Assembly: GCA_017860615.1 (NCBI GenBank)
Contig: JAGDMU010000006.1
Span: forward strand, 62,001 to 126,000
Direction: 5' to 3'
Source: Pseudomonadota bacterium
GTDB lineage: Bacteria > Campylobacterota > Campylobacteria > Campylobacterales > Sulfurospirillaceae
Length of the DNA stretch: 64,000 bases
The notes under the pieces: model-generated
The model's input: only the letters and a program-made list of their open reading frames with translations
What the model was told of the DNA's origin: nothing
The model's database searches: none
Program-made: the position numbers and the translations under genes
In this document: positions 31,985 through 37,452 of the stretch, piece after piece
Layout: each line of letters opens with the position of its first letter
Numbering within the stretch: the first letter of the stretch is position 1

Positions 31985-33559
31985 TTAGCGAAGCTCCATA
32001 ACCATTTTTTTTAAAACTTCTTTATCAATTTTAGCTTCACTTGGACTGGTCTGAGGAAGCTTCTCTTTATAGACAATAATAGACGGGATCATGTGATTTG
32101 GCAGATGCTTTTTAAGCTCAAACACAATCTCATTTTTAGGAACTTCTCTTAAGGCACTGTAAACCATGACAATATCTTCTTCTGTTTTCTCGTTTTCAAT
32201 CGAAAAAACAGCACATTGATTAATCTGCGGAAGTTTATCGTGAACAACACTCTCAATTTCATAAGGGCTTATTCTAAAACCGCTTACTTTGATCATATCA
32301 TCCTTGCGCGAAACAAAATAAAGATAGCCCTCTTCATCCCTATACACAAAATCACCGCTAGCAACGACGATCTCATCGGTTAGATCACCTTCTAAATTGA
32401 CTACTTTATCTAAGATAGCAATACTTTTATAACGTTTTTGGGTATCTTCTTTCGATTTCCAATAACCTTTATAGATGTAGCCACCGCGGTGAATGAGCTC
32501 TCCAATCTCACGAGGTTTGCACTCCAAGCCTTGTTCATTAATGACATGAATTTCAACACCAGGGATTGGCTTACCAATCGAATTGGGACGAATTTTAAGT
32601 TGTGCAGGATCAAGATAGGTTGAACGAAACGCTTCGGTAAGCCCATGCATTGAGTAAAATTTCGCACTTGGGTAACGCTCTTCAATGTCAGCAATCATTT
32701 TAGGCGTAATTTTCCCACCTGACGAGGTGACAATGCGCACATTGGCTAAAAGCTTGGCATTTGGAATACGTTTGGGATCACTCTCAAACATCTGTGTAAT
32801 GTGTGGAGGCATAAGTGGAAGAACGGTGACACCATCGTTAATAAGATGGTTGAAAAAATCTGCTGGAAGCACTAGCGAATGTAATGCAAGCGTTGCATGA
32901 TTGTAAATAGAACAGAAAAGTTGGTTAAGCCCATAATCTAAAATAAAAGGAAGCGTCCCAGAGATAACATCACTCTCTTTCAGTTCAAGGTAGTTTGAAG
33001 CGACTCTAGCACTATCGATGAGATTGCGGTGCGTGATGACAATACCTCTTGGGAAACCTGTCAATCCAAAACTATAGGTAATCGCTGCATTTTTATAATC
33101 ACCAATGTTACATGTAAAGGCATCGCTACAACATTTATAGATCTCTTCAAACGAGACGATGTCACGCTCGCTCGCTTCATACGTGATAATTTTGCCGCTA
33201 AATTTGATCTCATCAATGCTTTTGATTTTTGATTTATCGGTCATGATACATGCAATTCCACAATCATTGATAATATGTTCTACCTGCTCAGGTTTAAGAA
33301 GGCGTGAAATAGGCACAAAAATATGCTCGGTTGAAAGAAGTGCCAAAATAGCGATAATCTGCTCACTACTTTTATGTGAATAAATTCCGATGCGCGAACC
33401 ACTTGGGAGGGCAAGTTCACTCAGATAGCGCGCGATTTGATTGACTTTACGAAACAAATCAGAATAAGTTAGTTTTTTAGCGCCATCAATCACTGCGACT
33501 TTATCAGGACATGTCACAGCCGCTTTTTCAATGATCGCACGAATACAGTTTATAGACAT
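31985..33559 (-). CDS. AMP-forming acyl/aminoacyl ligase of the glutamate mutase operon
   Basis: 524 residues of the ANL adenylating superfamily. The phosphate-binding A3 motif is unusual (TYSFGLTGFPRG, residues 161-172, against TSGSTGxPKG). A5 is MHGLTEA; A7/A8 read ASGDFVYRDEEGYLYFVSR and the hinge IKVSGFRI; the catalytic A10 Lys is in EAKIDKEVL. The DYGLNQL segment (208-214) recalls the exosortase-associated ligase family. Substrate unknown; by context perhaps 3-methylaspartate, as for VinN of vicenistatin synthesis. No carrier protein gene is adjacent. It overlaps glmL by 10 bp; AGGAG precedes its ATG. Confidence 0.8.
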   Translation of the reverse strand: MSINCIRAIIEKAAVTCPDKVAVIDGAKKLTYSDLFRKVNQIARYLSELALPSGSRIGIYSHKSSEQIIAILALLSTEHIFVPISRLLKPEQVEHIINDCGIACIMTDKSKIKSIDEIKFSGKIITYEASERDIVSFEEIYKCCSDAFTCNIGDYKNAAITYSFGLTGFPRGIVITHRNLIDSARVASNYLELKESDVISGTLPFILDYGLNQLFCSIYNHATLALHSLVLPADFFNHLINDGVTVLPLMPPHITQMFESDPKRIPNAKLLANVRIVTSSGGKITPKMIADIEERYPSAKFYSMHGLTEAFRSTYLDPAQLKIRPNSIGKPIPGVEIHVINEQGLECKPREIGELIHRGGYIYKGYWKSKEDTQKRYKSIAILDKVVNLEGDLTDEIVVASGDFVYRDEEGYLYFVSRKDDMIKVSGFRISPYEIESVVHDKLPQINQCAVFSIENEKTEEDIVMVYSALREVPKNEIVFELKKHLPNHMIPSIIVYKEKLPQTSPSEAKIDKEVLKKMVMELR

Positions 33560-34752
33560 TTTGGCTCCTTTGATTCATTATTTTCCATTCCTAACGTCCA
33601 GATTGCGTAGTCGTAATCCATAACAATATTAGGAGTTGCATGTAAATTCATTACTTTTTTATAGAAGAATTGCATAATCATTTCAACCTCTTCGTAAGAA
33701 AGCACTTTGGTAATACCGCCTGTTAATACAATGGTATTGAGCAGGTCTAGATGCAATGTTACATACAAAGGGTTGAGTCTTGAAACTTTATAAAGTACCA
33801 AAAAGATGGAAAGTTGCATCAAAATGCGTAAAGCTTTTTCGCTCTCCTCTTCTAAAATATTCTCTGTCACATTCAGATACGATAATAACTCATAGACAAA
33901 CTCATTGTTTTTAGCCGCAAAAATAAGCGTTTCGCGAGACTTAAAAACACCCAGCTTTTTAAAGACTAAGCGGTCATATCCGCTTTCACTCACAATGTTA
34001 TCGCGCACCAAATCACGACTGTAATGAATATCCGTCGTAGCCCCACCAATGTCCACAACAATGAACGGATTAACCACTTCAAAATTCGCATCAATAAGTG
34101 GTAAAGAGCGATTAACGATATACGGTGTTGAGTAGATTTGATTCGCTGTGATTTCGTAAAGATGCTTGATATCTTCTTTACCCACGATATCTGCTTGGTA
34201 AAGGTTTGTAAGGTACTCTTTAAGCTCGCCACCGTTTACATGTAATTTCTCAGTAATGATATTTCCAAGCACTTTAAGTTCTGGAATTTGCGCACTTAAA
34301 AAGGAGACGTCTTGTTTGGTTCCCACATAAACAATATTGCTGTACTGAACGTTTTTGAGGTAGTAAAACAGTTTTTCATCAAACACCTTGCCAATGCCAT
34401 CAATTCCACCTACGATAATAACTACATCGACCAGCTCGCTAGGCGCTCTACTCTCCTCGATCTTACTGTACAAAATCGTATCGATAATGTTAATACCTGA
34501 ATTAAACGCAATGTTTTTAGCAAATTTCAAACTAAAGGAGTTGGTAAGCCCGATGATAAGCGTACTCAAACCACCATTGGCGGAAGAGCAGATAAAAATA
34601 TCCTCTTTTTTATAGTTTGCAAAAATGTTGCCACACTTGGTGATCAAATCATCGTAAATATCTTTTTTAAAATCCCTAAAATACTGACTGATACCGCTTG
34701 TCTGGCAGACTTTAAAGTAGGTACTTCCTACATCGATGAGCAGTTTACTCAT
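33550..34752 (-). CDS. glmL: GlmL/MutL family protein (glutamate mutase partner ATPase)
   Basis: 400 residues with an actin-like ATPase fold: phosphate loop LLIDVGSTYFKV at residues 4-15 and the second phosphate motif VVDIGGATTDIHY near 231-243. GlmL proteins lie between the two glutamate mutase subunit genes in clostridia and are thought to reactivate the B12 enzyme. It is shorter than the clostridial version as I recall it (about 460). It overlaps glmE by 4 bp. Confidence 0.85.
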   Translation of the reverse strand: MSKLLIDVGSTYFKVCQTSGISQYFRDFKKDIYDDLITKCGNIFANYKKEDIFICSSANGGLSTLIIGLTNSFSLKFAKNIAFNSGINIIDTILYSKIEESRAPSELVDVVIIVGGIDGIGKVFDEKLFYYLKNVQYSNIVYVGTKQDVSFLSAQIPELKVLGNIITEKLHVNGGELKEYLTNLYQADIVGKEDIKHLYEITANQIYSTPYIVNRSLPLIDANFEVVNPFIVVDIGGATTDIHYSRDLVRDNIVSESGYDRLVFKKLGVFKSRETLIFAAKNNEFVYELLSYLNVTENILEEESEKALRILMQLSIFLVLYKVSRLNPLYVTLHLDLLNTIVLTGGITKVLSYEEVEMIMQFFYKKVMNLHATPNIVMDYDYAIWTLGMENNESKEPKCL

Positions 34753-36113
34753 AGCATCGCCCCTATGTCGTGAATAATTTTATTGATTACCTCTGTTTTG
34801 CTCTCAGGTAAATTGACCTTTGATTTTTCATAGGCAAAACAACGATCGGGTAGTGGGAGTTTTCCTTTTTCAATAATGCGGATATTGCCAGAATCATCGC
34901 GAATCGTGATGACTTCATTGTTATTGATGATATGTGGTGAAAAAGGAACGTCAATCAAGCCGCTTTTAATGGTGTTGAACACTTTACGCCATAAGGTATC
35001 GGCAGGGTCATTAAAGACCGCGTCCATAATGGCACGAACTTCCAGCTCCAAGTTCTCCTCTTCCTCAGCATCATGCACAACAGGCAGACCCTTGAGGGTG
35101 CGAAGTGTGTATTTGGTATTGGCAACCGATTGGGCATTGCACTGCATGGTAGGAATACCAAAAGCTTCATCACGCGTTTTGATGATGATTTTATCGGCTC
35201 TTACCATCGCAGCAATGACGGTATTGGTATTAATCAGTGAATCAGAAAGATTTTTATCGCGTGGAAATGCACCCATCCATTGGTGGTAAACAAGGTTGAT
35301 GATAGCGTCCTCTCCACCAAACATATCCGCATATTCGCGTGCCAGCTTTTTAAGAACATTAGAAGTAACAATATCTTGCATCATCGAGCCATTTTGAGAA
35401 AAACTGACCGAAAAAGACTTTACACCCTCTTCAATGGAAAGAAGCATCTCGATAAGCTGAATGACGATAACGATGCATGGAGGAACGAGTGTCGCTGTGA
35501 GTGGTCCAAAAGACTCACGGTTGATCGGTTCATTGAGCGTTGAGTACTTCGCACAGACTTTATCGACGTATTTCCAGTATAAAAAGGCTTTATCAAGCGG
35601 AAAATTTTTTGAGTAAGGGAGCATATACGTAATCGGCCCACCTTCAATTTCAAAAATACCTGAAGCGAGTGCCGTCTCCACCAAAAGCCTCGCATCAGGT
35701 GTGCCGTGGCGAAGACTGACAGGTTTATTAAAATGCGTCATCATCTTTCGGGTTGTACGGTAGCCGTGATTGACCAGCGGATAACCGTTGAGCATATCCA
35801 TCTCGTTCTCTTCGGAGAGGGTGAGCATCTTTTTTGCCATCGCGTAGTCATTGAGTCTTGTGTTACTATCGATGGTGAGAGGTAGAACATCAATGTCCGC
35901 TTTCATAAACTCTTCATAGAGTTCAAACATCTTTTTATAGGTCGGAAAACCGCCACGAGGTTGAACAAGAAGTCTGTCGCGTTTTTTAAAATGATGGGAG
36001 ATAAACATCTCTTTATTCGCATTGCGTATAAAATCTTCAATCTCATCAAAATCAAAACTATCGGCGTATTCATTGCGGGTGATGACATCACGCTCTTTTT
36101 GGAGTAAACTCAT
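34749..36113 (-). CDS. glmE: Glutamate mutase (methylaspartate mutase) epsilon subunit
   Basis: 454 residues; the catalytic TIM-barrel subunit that, with GlmS and adenosylcobalamin, interconverts L-glutamate and (2S,3S)-3-methylaspartate. Family patterns visible include LLVQPRGGFPTY, PLTIDSNTRL, VSLRHGTPDAR and FSVSFSQNGSMMQD. It overlaps both flanking genes by 4 bp, so subunit synthesis is coupled. Confidence 0.9.
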   Translation of the reverse strand: MSLLQKERDVITRNEYADSFDFDEIEDFIRNANKEMFISHHFKKRDRLLVQPRGGFPTYKKMFELYEEFMKADIDVLPLTIDSNTRLNDYAMAKKMLTLSEENEMDMLNGYPLVNHGYRTTRKMMTHFNKPVSLRHGTPDARLLVETALASGIFEIEGGPITYMLPYSKNFPLDKAFLYWKYVDKVCAKYSTLNEPINRESFGPLTATLVPPCIVIVIQLIEMLLSIEEGVKSFSVSFSQNGSMMQDIVTSNVLKKLAREYADMFGGEDAIINLVYHQWMGAFPRDKNLSDSLINTNTVIAAMVRADKIIIKTRDEAFGIPTMQCNAQSVANTKYTLRTLKGLPVVHDAEEEENLELEVRAIMDAVFNDPADTLWRKVFNTIKSGLIDVPFSPHIINNNEVITIRDDSGNIRIIEKGKLPLPDRCFAYEKSKVNLPESKTEVINKIIHDIGAML

Positions 36114-36514
36114 GCTCGCTCCTTTACAAAACGCTCAATTTCATCAAGTCCTGTGTTAAGATCGATTTGATGAAAGACAAGGTCAAACCCATATGATTTA
36201 TATTTTGGTACAATATCGCTTTGCGCCGCTTCGCCTACTGCAAGATTGCCACCGATCACAAAAACAACATCTCTAAGATCATATTCGGAGCGTAAAAATT
36301 GTAAGTCTCGGCACCAGCCTTCCGCTTCACCGTTAAGGGAAGAGATAAGCAGTATGTCTGCATCTGTTTCGACGACAGCGTCAATAAACTCCTCCAATGA
36401 AGTATTAACGCCTAGGTTAAATACTTCAAAACCTCTAGCTTGTAATGATATATCAATAAGTCTGTTAGCGACTACATGAATGTCATTACCCACGACACCT
36501 GTGACTACTTTCAT
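36110..36514 (-). CDS. glmS: Glutamate mutase sigma (cobalamin-binding) subunit
   Basis: 134 residues from the ATG at 36514, giving the standard N-terminus VVTGVVGNDIHVVAN. The base-off B12 motif is normally DxHxxG; here it is Asp11-x-His13-x-x-Ala16, so the His ligand is kept and the Gly is Ala. SSLNGE and GGNLAVGE supply the other two cofactor loops. A longer frame to 36637 has no homologous extension and runs into the divergent cytochrome gene. First gene of the four-gene operon. Confidence 0.88.
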   Translation of the reverse strand: MKVVTGVVGNDIHVVANRLIDISLQARGFEVFNLGVNTSLEEFIDAVVETDADILLISSLNGEAEGWCRDLQFLRSEYDLRDVVFVIGGNLAVGEAAQSDIVPKYKSYGFDLVFHQIDLNTGLDEIERFVKERA

Positions 36515-36599: not shown

Positions 36600-36959
36600 A
36601 TGTCAAAAAAAGCCTTTTTGTTCCTTATATTTCTCATTTTGAGTTTTCAGAGCATGTTAATTGCGTGTGGTGGAAGCTGTTTGGAGTGCCATTCGAAACT
36701 TCAACCTTACATCAATGACCAAAATCATATTATTTTAAATGAGTGTATTACCTGTCATAATAAACCATCCGAGCAAGGGCAATGTGGTAAAGACTGCTTT
36801 GATTGCCATTCACGTGAAAAAGTCTATGCACAAAAAGATGTCATAGCGCATCAAGAGCTTAAGATTTGTGGAACATGCCATAAAGAAAAAGTTGATTTTA
36901 CCATTCCAAAACGTTCCGTAATTTCCAATCAAAACAATTTAATTCAACTCTTCAAATAA
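36600..36959 (+). CDS. Small periplasmic tetrahaem cytochrome c
   Basis: 119 residues with a signal peptide (about 1-22) and four CxxCH haem-binding motifs: CLECH, CITCH, CFDCH and CGTCH. Extra cysteines occur at ACGGSC and QCGKDC. The spacing is irregular and the protein is small, like soluble electron carriers of anaerobic respiration. Its partner is unknown; the next gene is rraA, 13 bp downstream. Confidence 0.85.
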   Translation: MSKKAFLFLIFLILSFQSMLIACGGSCLECHSKLQPYINDQNHIILNECITCHNKPSEQGQCGKDCFDCHSREKVYAQKDVIAHQELKICGTCHKEKVDFTIPKRSVISNQNNLIQLFK

Positions 36960-36972
36960 ACTAGGAGCAACA

Positions 36973-37452
36973 ATGAAATTTTATACCGCTGACCTTTGTG
37001 ACAAATACCCAGAGCACGTTCATGTGTTAGATCCCATTATGAAATCGTACGGTGGAGCTAAACGTGTTATGGGACAAATCGTTACCATTAAATTACCAGG
37101 CCACAATAAAACTTTGGTCGAACTGCTTAAAAGCGAAGGTGCAGGTCAAATCGCTGTCGTTGATGTCGATGCCAAATACACCGCAGTTGTAGGTGATAAT
37201 CTGATGAAATTTGCTTATGAGAACAACTGGGCAGGGATTGTCATCAATGGTTATGTACGTGACACCAAAAATACCAAAGAGATCGATGTGGGGCTTTTTG
37301 CGCTCGGAACATGCCCTAAAAAAACGATGGAGCTTGCTGAAGGCTCATTGCATGACACTGTTAGTTTTGGTGGAATAACCTTTAACAAAGGGGACTATCT
37401 CTATGCCGATAGAGATGGCATTATTGTAAGTCACATACCTTTGGAGGTGTAA
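36973..37452 (+). CDS. rraA: RraA family protein
   Basis: 159 residues, full length for RraA (regulator of RNase E activity A) or the related 4-hydroxy-4-methyl-2-oxoglutarate / oxaloacetate-lyase family. The conserved core DVDAKYTAVVGDNL, GIVINGYVRDT and the C-terminal DRDGIIVS are visible. Campylobacterota lack a classical RNase E, so the aldolase activity or another role may be more relevant. Its end overlaps the convergent gene by 32 bp. Confidence 0.85.
   Translation: MKFYTADLCDKYPEHVHVLDPIMKSYGGAKRVMGQIVTIKLPGHNKTLVELLKSEGAGQIAVVDVDAKYTAVVGDNLMKFAYENNWAGIVINGYVRDTKNTKEIDVGLFALGTCPKKTMELAEGSLHDTVSFGGITFNKGDYLYADRDGIIVSHIPLEV

Follow-up and report, generated by a model that had tools for sequence, protein, structure and literature searches.

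What does a B12-dependent glutamate mutase make in a bacterium of the Campylobacterota, when its genes run into the gene of a ligase-like protein of the ANL fold? The question is raised by an operon in the window (the whole 64-kb stretch of DNA analyzed, G000:C24:62001-126000, from a genome of 2.79 Mb in 31 contigs), which a sequence-only reading had described as a four-gene set that makes and activates a branched amino acid.

The module and its distribution

The operon lies on the minus strand and comprises glmS (36110..36514; methylaspartate mutase S, 159 bits, cut-off 110), which encodes the B12-binding sigma subunit of glutamate mutase; glmE (34749..36113; PF06368, 400 bits), for the catalytic epsilon subunit; glmL (33550..34752; PF13941, 91 bits), for an accessory ATPase-like protein of the MutL/GlmL family; and a gene for a TIGR03098-like ANL-fold protein with a degenerate P-loop (31985..33559; PF00501, 209 bits), hereafter the ligase. 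The four genes were found where the sequence-only reading had placed them, with overlaps of 4, 4 and 10 bp in that order, which support the translational coupling proposed for them. The operon ends at 31985-31880, straight upstream of rpmH, which directly follows the ligase gene as read from the sequence; rnpA, yidC, jag and mnmE, assigned by look only, lie beyond it. This site beside rpmH is kept in relatives of the same family, and other families carry the operon elsewhere. Neither a cobalamin riboswitch nor any other Rfam element was found in the 64-kb window, and the nearest named relative encountered was Sulfurospirillum sp. UBA4058 (GlmE 94%, ligase 88%).

Judged by their residues, GlmS and GlmE would form a working glutamate mutase, in agreement with the identity first assigned to them. 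GlmE aligns with the solved glutamate mutase of Clostridium cochlearium and keeps all seven of what we take to be the substrate residues of the E subunit (R66, R100, R149, E171, Y177, Y181 and K326, counted along that alignment), which are invariant in 56/56 orthologs from two phyla. GlmS retains the cobalt-ligand histidine and its aspartate, as well as SSL and GG, with DIHVVA in place of DxHxxG, the glycine of which is replaced by alanine in the family. The NCBIfam score of GlmE (379) is slightly below the cut-off (390), and GlmL, divergent within the MutL/GlmL family, is also under its NCBIfam cut-off.

Two actinobacteria (L117 and L126; Actinokineospora) also contain the DNA pattern that stands for NDIHVVANR, the motif of GlmS, the L117 copy having 43% identity to the window GlmS and another gene context. 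A different glutamate-mutase-like set occurs on a plasmid of Methylobacter sp. YRD-M1 (L111, 5877-11237), with genes for asparagine synthetase A, a B12-binding protein, two hypothetical proteins (one GlmE-like, 33%) and an EamA transporter.

The four-gene operon is real, but as a full set it overlooked a divergent gene on the plus strand (36973..37452), which belongs to the same unit and encodes an RraA-like protein of the class II pyruvate aldolase/oxaloacetate decarboxylase family. This protein exceeds the cut-off of the RraA model (162.6 bits vs 136), and its Arg96-Asp97 pair, together with Gly74, Asn92, Tyr94, Lys117 and Asp148, is present in 46/46 RraA proteins of the module, whereas the RraA of E. 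coli has a glutamine at position 97 and also differs at the others. In the related HMG/CHA aldolase, of the class II pyruvate type, one enolate serves both the aldol reaction and the decarboxylation of oxaloacetate, and most RraA homologs bearing the motif are considered enzymes of this kind (PMC5065237). Between glmS and the RraA-like gene lies a plus-strand frame (36600-36959) for a small secreted-looking protein with several CxxCH heme motifs, which we left out of the module because, among the loci compared, it turned up in two from the window's genus.

This GlmE occurs in 57/397 Campylobacterota genomes, from 20 of the 68 genera. The ligase (presence threshold, E at most 1e-60) accompanies it in 56 of these 57 genomes and is absent from all GlmE-negative genomes of the sample, while the RraA-like gene is found in 57/57 GlmE-positive and 3/340 GlmE-negative genomes (Fisher 7e-66, a value that ignores phylogeny, for a pattern across about 20 genera). 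A search for the gene set in other Campylobacterota, as the sequence-only reading had advised, found the order glmS-glmE-glmL-ligase in 28 of 31 neighborhoods; the operon is therefore not a chance arrangement. In the remaining three, the operon is split (L048), the locus contains an inserted reading frame (L061) or, in genome G355, the ligase has been lost, with retention of glmS, glmE, glmL and the RraA-like gene. The latter adjoins the operon in 22/31 neighborhoods, often divergent from glmS. In the family group f7, genomes G206, G260 and G296 have the RraA-like gene without GlmE, and some genomes carry two or three RraA copies.

The operon is not confined to epsilonproteobacteria. Scanning with the GlmS motif back-translated into GC-rich DNA, we found the same unit in marine Gammaproteobacteria (Halieaceae, Granulosicoccaceae, Cellvibrionaceae and Paraglaciecola), with the RraA-like gene divergent from glmS in 16/17 proteobacterial loci and a GlmE identity of 72-75%. 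In the trees of GlmE, ligase and RraA (quick trees with several open forks), the gammaproteobacterial copies grouped with the same Campylobacterota, namely groups f7 and f8, which we take, as a guess, to be Arcobacteraceae and Sulfurimonadaceae. From this same placement in all three trees, we conclude that the three genes moved together. Together, these data point to one conserved, horizontally moved metabolic module made up of the operon and the RraA-like gene divergent from it, and we are highly confident that the five genes are members of it.

In 9 of the 12 gammaproteobacterial genomes searched, the RraA-like gene is flanked by an aspartate aminotransferase (AspC-type) paralog, the closest solved relatives of which are the E. 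coli aspartate aminotransferases; the outer flanks differ. These nine genomes also have a resident aminotransferase paralog elsewhere (about 47-54%), and the three others, without the linked gene, have a single such enzyme (45-52%). A dedicated aminotransferase was also sought in Campylobacterota, where no ortholog of the gammaproteobacterial enzyme was found.

The ANL protein and the search for its partners

The sequence-only reading had the ligase activate an amino acid, a claim weakened by its ATP motifs. The best NCBIfam for the protein is TIGR03098, whose cut-off (592 bits) is reached neither by the window copy (442 bits) nor by the gammaproteobacterial copy (435 bits). In its 59 orthologs the P-loop serine is always phenylalanine, the hydroxyls at positions 166/167 vary, and the A10 lysine (Lys510) is present in 40. 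With two additional residues in the A10 loop, the exact position of this lysine in the alignment is uncertain, but three orthologs lack any lysine in that loop. The protein thus falls short of the ATP P-loop and A10 lysine that an adenylating ligase of the VinN kind requires. The plasmid-borne TIGR03098 relatives have an ordinary P-loop, and adjoin genes for a PLP decarboxylase and a carrier protein.

By contrast with these motifs, E309, D403, R418, K424, D208 and Arg312 are invariant in the 59 orthologs, and the first five would be the expected ligands of AMP, Mg and the substrate amino group. In sequence alignments, Asp208 is the counterpart of the amino-binding D230 of VinN, and Arg312 is a basic residue near the position of K330/R331 in the beta13-beta14 loop of VinN (PMC11253843). 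This pattern looks like a remodeling of the ATP half-reaction, not decay. We regard ordinary ATP adenylation by this protein as doubtful, its probable ligands being an amino dicarboxylate and an AMP-like molecule. Since P-loop mutants of ANL enzymes can retain some activity, activation of 3-methylaspartate is weakened and still conceivable. An apparent ligase fusion in genome G074 (848-aa open frame) proved to be merely a long open frame, the gene itself encoding 521 aa, and the ligase structure predicted by AlphaFold (pLDDT 56) was left unused.

As the sequence-only reading had advised, a carrier protein partner was looked for in the genome, and also in the neighborhoods and by co-occurrence, and no dedicated one tracking the module was found. 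The window's genome has only AcpP and one carrier of the aryl-polyene type, which is part of an aryl-polyene-like cluster and the presence of which does not track the operon; such a cluster in this genome (L054, G000:C28:84000-96010) comprises an ammonia-lyase, a ketosynthase, a carrier protein and an exporter. A small conserved gene downstream of the operon in Arcobacter-like genomes, considered as a carrier, turned out to encode a c-type cytochrome. No VinO-like PLP-dependent decarboxylase was found among the operon neighbors.

A possible route from glutamate to 2-oxobutyrate and its rivals

The composition of the module is firm. For its chemistry, we infer from the genes, as regards both the reactions and their order, a pathway leading from glutamate through 3-methylaspartate and 3-methyloxaloacetate to 2-oxobutyrate and CO2, to which we give somewhat less than an even chance. 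GlmS and GlmE would convert L-glutamate into (2S,3S)-3-methylaspartate, with GlmL as the putative maintenance protein of the mutase. An aminotransferase, the dedicated aspartate aminotransferase paralog in Gammaproteobacteria and presumably the housekeeping one in Campylobacterota, would turn 3-methylaspartate into 3-methyloxaloacetate, which the RraA-like enzyme would decarboxylate via the enolate. The resulting 2-oxobutyrate could serve isoleucine or propionyl-CoA formation, and the ANL protein may act as a regulator, or in a thioester or transfer step.

Several lines of evidence argue for this oxo-acid route. First, it is suggested by the combination of an aminotransferase, an enzyme of the oxaloacetate decarboxylase type and a mutase making 3-methylaspartate; the RraA-like partner and the gammaproteobacterial aminotransferase point to an oxo acid instead of the conjugate or polymer proposed earlier. 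Second, knowing that the equilibrium of glutamate mutase disfavors methylaspartate (constant 0.093; PMC8307300), a decarboxylation that would pull the reaction forward makes sense. Third, we count in its favor genome G355, which does without the ligase. The seven intact GlmE residues, the co-occurrence, adjacency and shared tree placement of the RraA-like gene and its invariant Arg-Asp pair also speak for it. Four points stand against it. The 2-oxobutyrate for isoleucine is already supplied by threonine dehydratase (IlvA), found in 47/48 Campylobacterota genomes, including all 25 GlmE-positive ones, and in 12/12 Gammaproteobacteria; the module is thus not the sole isoleucine route, and an essential role in isoleucine supply is ruled out. 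The aminotransferase has no ortholog found in Campylobacterota, and its linked copy is missing in three of the 12 Gammaproteobacteria. The conserved and nearly always linked ANL gene is without a clear place, and members of the RraA family can be non-enzymatic regulators. The proposal in full is tentative: a gene set for a B12-dependent route from glutamate to 2-oxobutyrate would have spread between Campylobacterota and marine Gammaproteobacteria, its RraA-family member decarboxylating 3-methyloxaloacetate and its ANL protein having exchanged ATP activation for a new function.

The best-surviving alternative, possible though with the odds against it, is that the mutase makes 3-methylaspartate for activation by the ANL protein (as an adenylate, then passed to CoA, a carrier protein or an amine) into a conjugate or polymer, the RraA-like protein and the aminotransferase trimming or recycling side products. 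It would account for the ligase being confined, within the sample, to 56 of the 57 genomes that have GlmE, and it is consistent with the six invariant residues and with the TIGR03098 relatives lying beside a PLP decarboxylase and a carrier protein, like VinN/VinO/VinL (PMC11284099). It is at odds with the invariant P-loop phenylalanine, the unconserved hydroxyls and the incompletely kept A10 lysine, with the lack of a carrier gene nearby and of tracking by the aryl-polyene-type carrier, and with G355, which keeps the other four genes without the ligase.

The RraA-like protein might, improbably, act as an aldolase, joining the enolate of 3-methyloxaloacetate or pyruvate to an aldehyde or oxo acid, to give a branched hydroxy acid for the ANL protein. 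The conserved catalytic Arg-Asp pair fits this reaction, knowing that RraA-family class II pyruvate aldolases share the enolate between aldol and decarboxylase reactions (PMC5065237); however, no linked gene accounts for the second substrate or the product, and decarboxylation takes fewer assumptions. That the RraA-like gene encodes a regulator of RNA turnover, a chance companion of the operon, agrees with its score above the RraA model cut-off, but is made very improbable by its co-occurrence with GlmE, its joint transfer with the operon across phyla and an Arg-Asp pair missing in E. coli RraA; furthermore, RNase E is, to our knowledge, absent from Campylobacterota. Finally, fermentative or methylaspartate-cycle use of glutamate via mesaconate, both of which have glutamate mutase as their first committed enzyme (PMC8307300, PMC8473912), is the least likely of all, methylaspartate ammonia-lyase being absent from the window's genome and over the cut-off in 0/48 Campylobacterota genomes, 25 of them GlmE-positive; such use would call for a non-homologous ammonia-lyase. 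The sequence-only reading, which had seen no such gene in the window, is supported on this point.

Comparison with known systems

The earlier claim of a small pathway without a published description agrees with our search, which found no paper on the gene set in the literature covered, with subscription journals largely outside its scope. Three features in want of an explanation meet here in one testable unit: a B12-dependent mutase that belongs to neither a fermentation nor an antibiotic cluster, an RraA of the enzyme type in Campylobacterota, and an ANL protein with consistently remodeled ATP motifs. Should the proposed pathway hold, it would be a B12-dependent trait of widespread sulfur-cycle and marine bacteria.

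Similarly to the clostridial glmS/mutL/glmE set of methylaspartate fermentation, the module has the S, L and E genes in one operon and shares all E-subunit substrate residues; it differs by the absence of an ammonia-lyase, the diverged GlmE (379 vs 390), the DxHxxA of GlmS and its partners, the ANL protein and RraA. With the vicenistatin starter-unit genes (VinH/VinI with VinN, VinL and VinO), it has in common a glutamate mutase and an ANL protein with the amino-binding aspartate, whereas neither a carrier protein nor a PLP decarboxylase is encoded nearby and the ATP motifs are degenerate. TIGR03098, the exosortase A system-associated acyl-CoA ligase, is the closest named ligase family and shares the pocket motif GLTEAFRSTYL; in the module, the P-loop is changed, the neighbors of that family (PLP decarboxylase, ACP) are absent, and the score is 442 vs 592 bits. 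The RraA-like protein shares its fold family and the catalytic Arg-Asp with the HMG/CHA aldolase-oxaloacetate decarboxylase and RraA, but it is linked to a glutamate mutase and was seen in no aromatic ring-cleavage context. Lastly, old labeling work on E. coli strains reportedly led to the proposal of a methylaspartate route to 2-oxobutyrate and isoleucine, for which we know of no gene set. The predicted intermediates are the same, with threonine dehydratase also present here, and, should the pathway be confirmed, the module would provide the genes for the methylaspartate route to 2-oxobutyrate.
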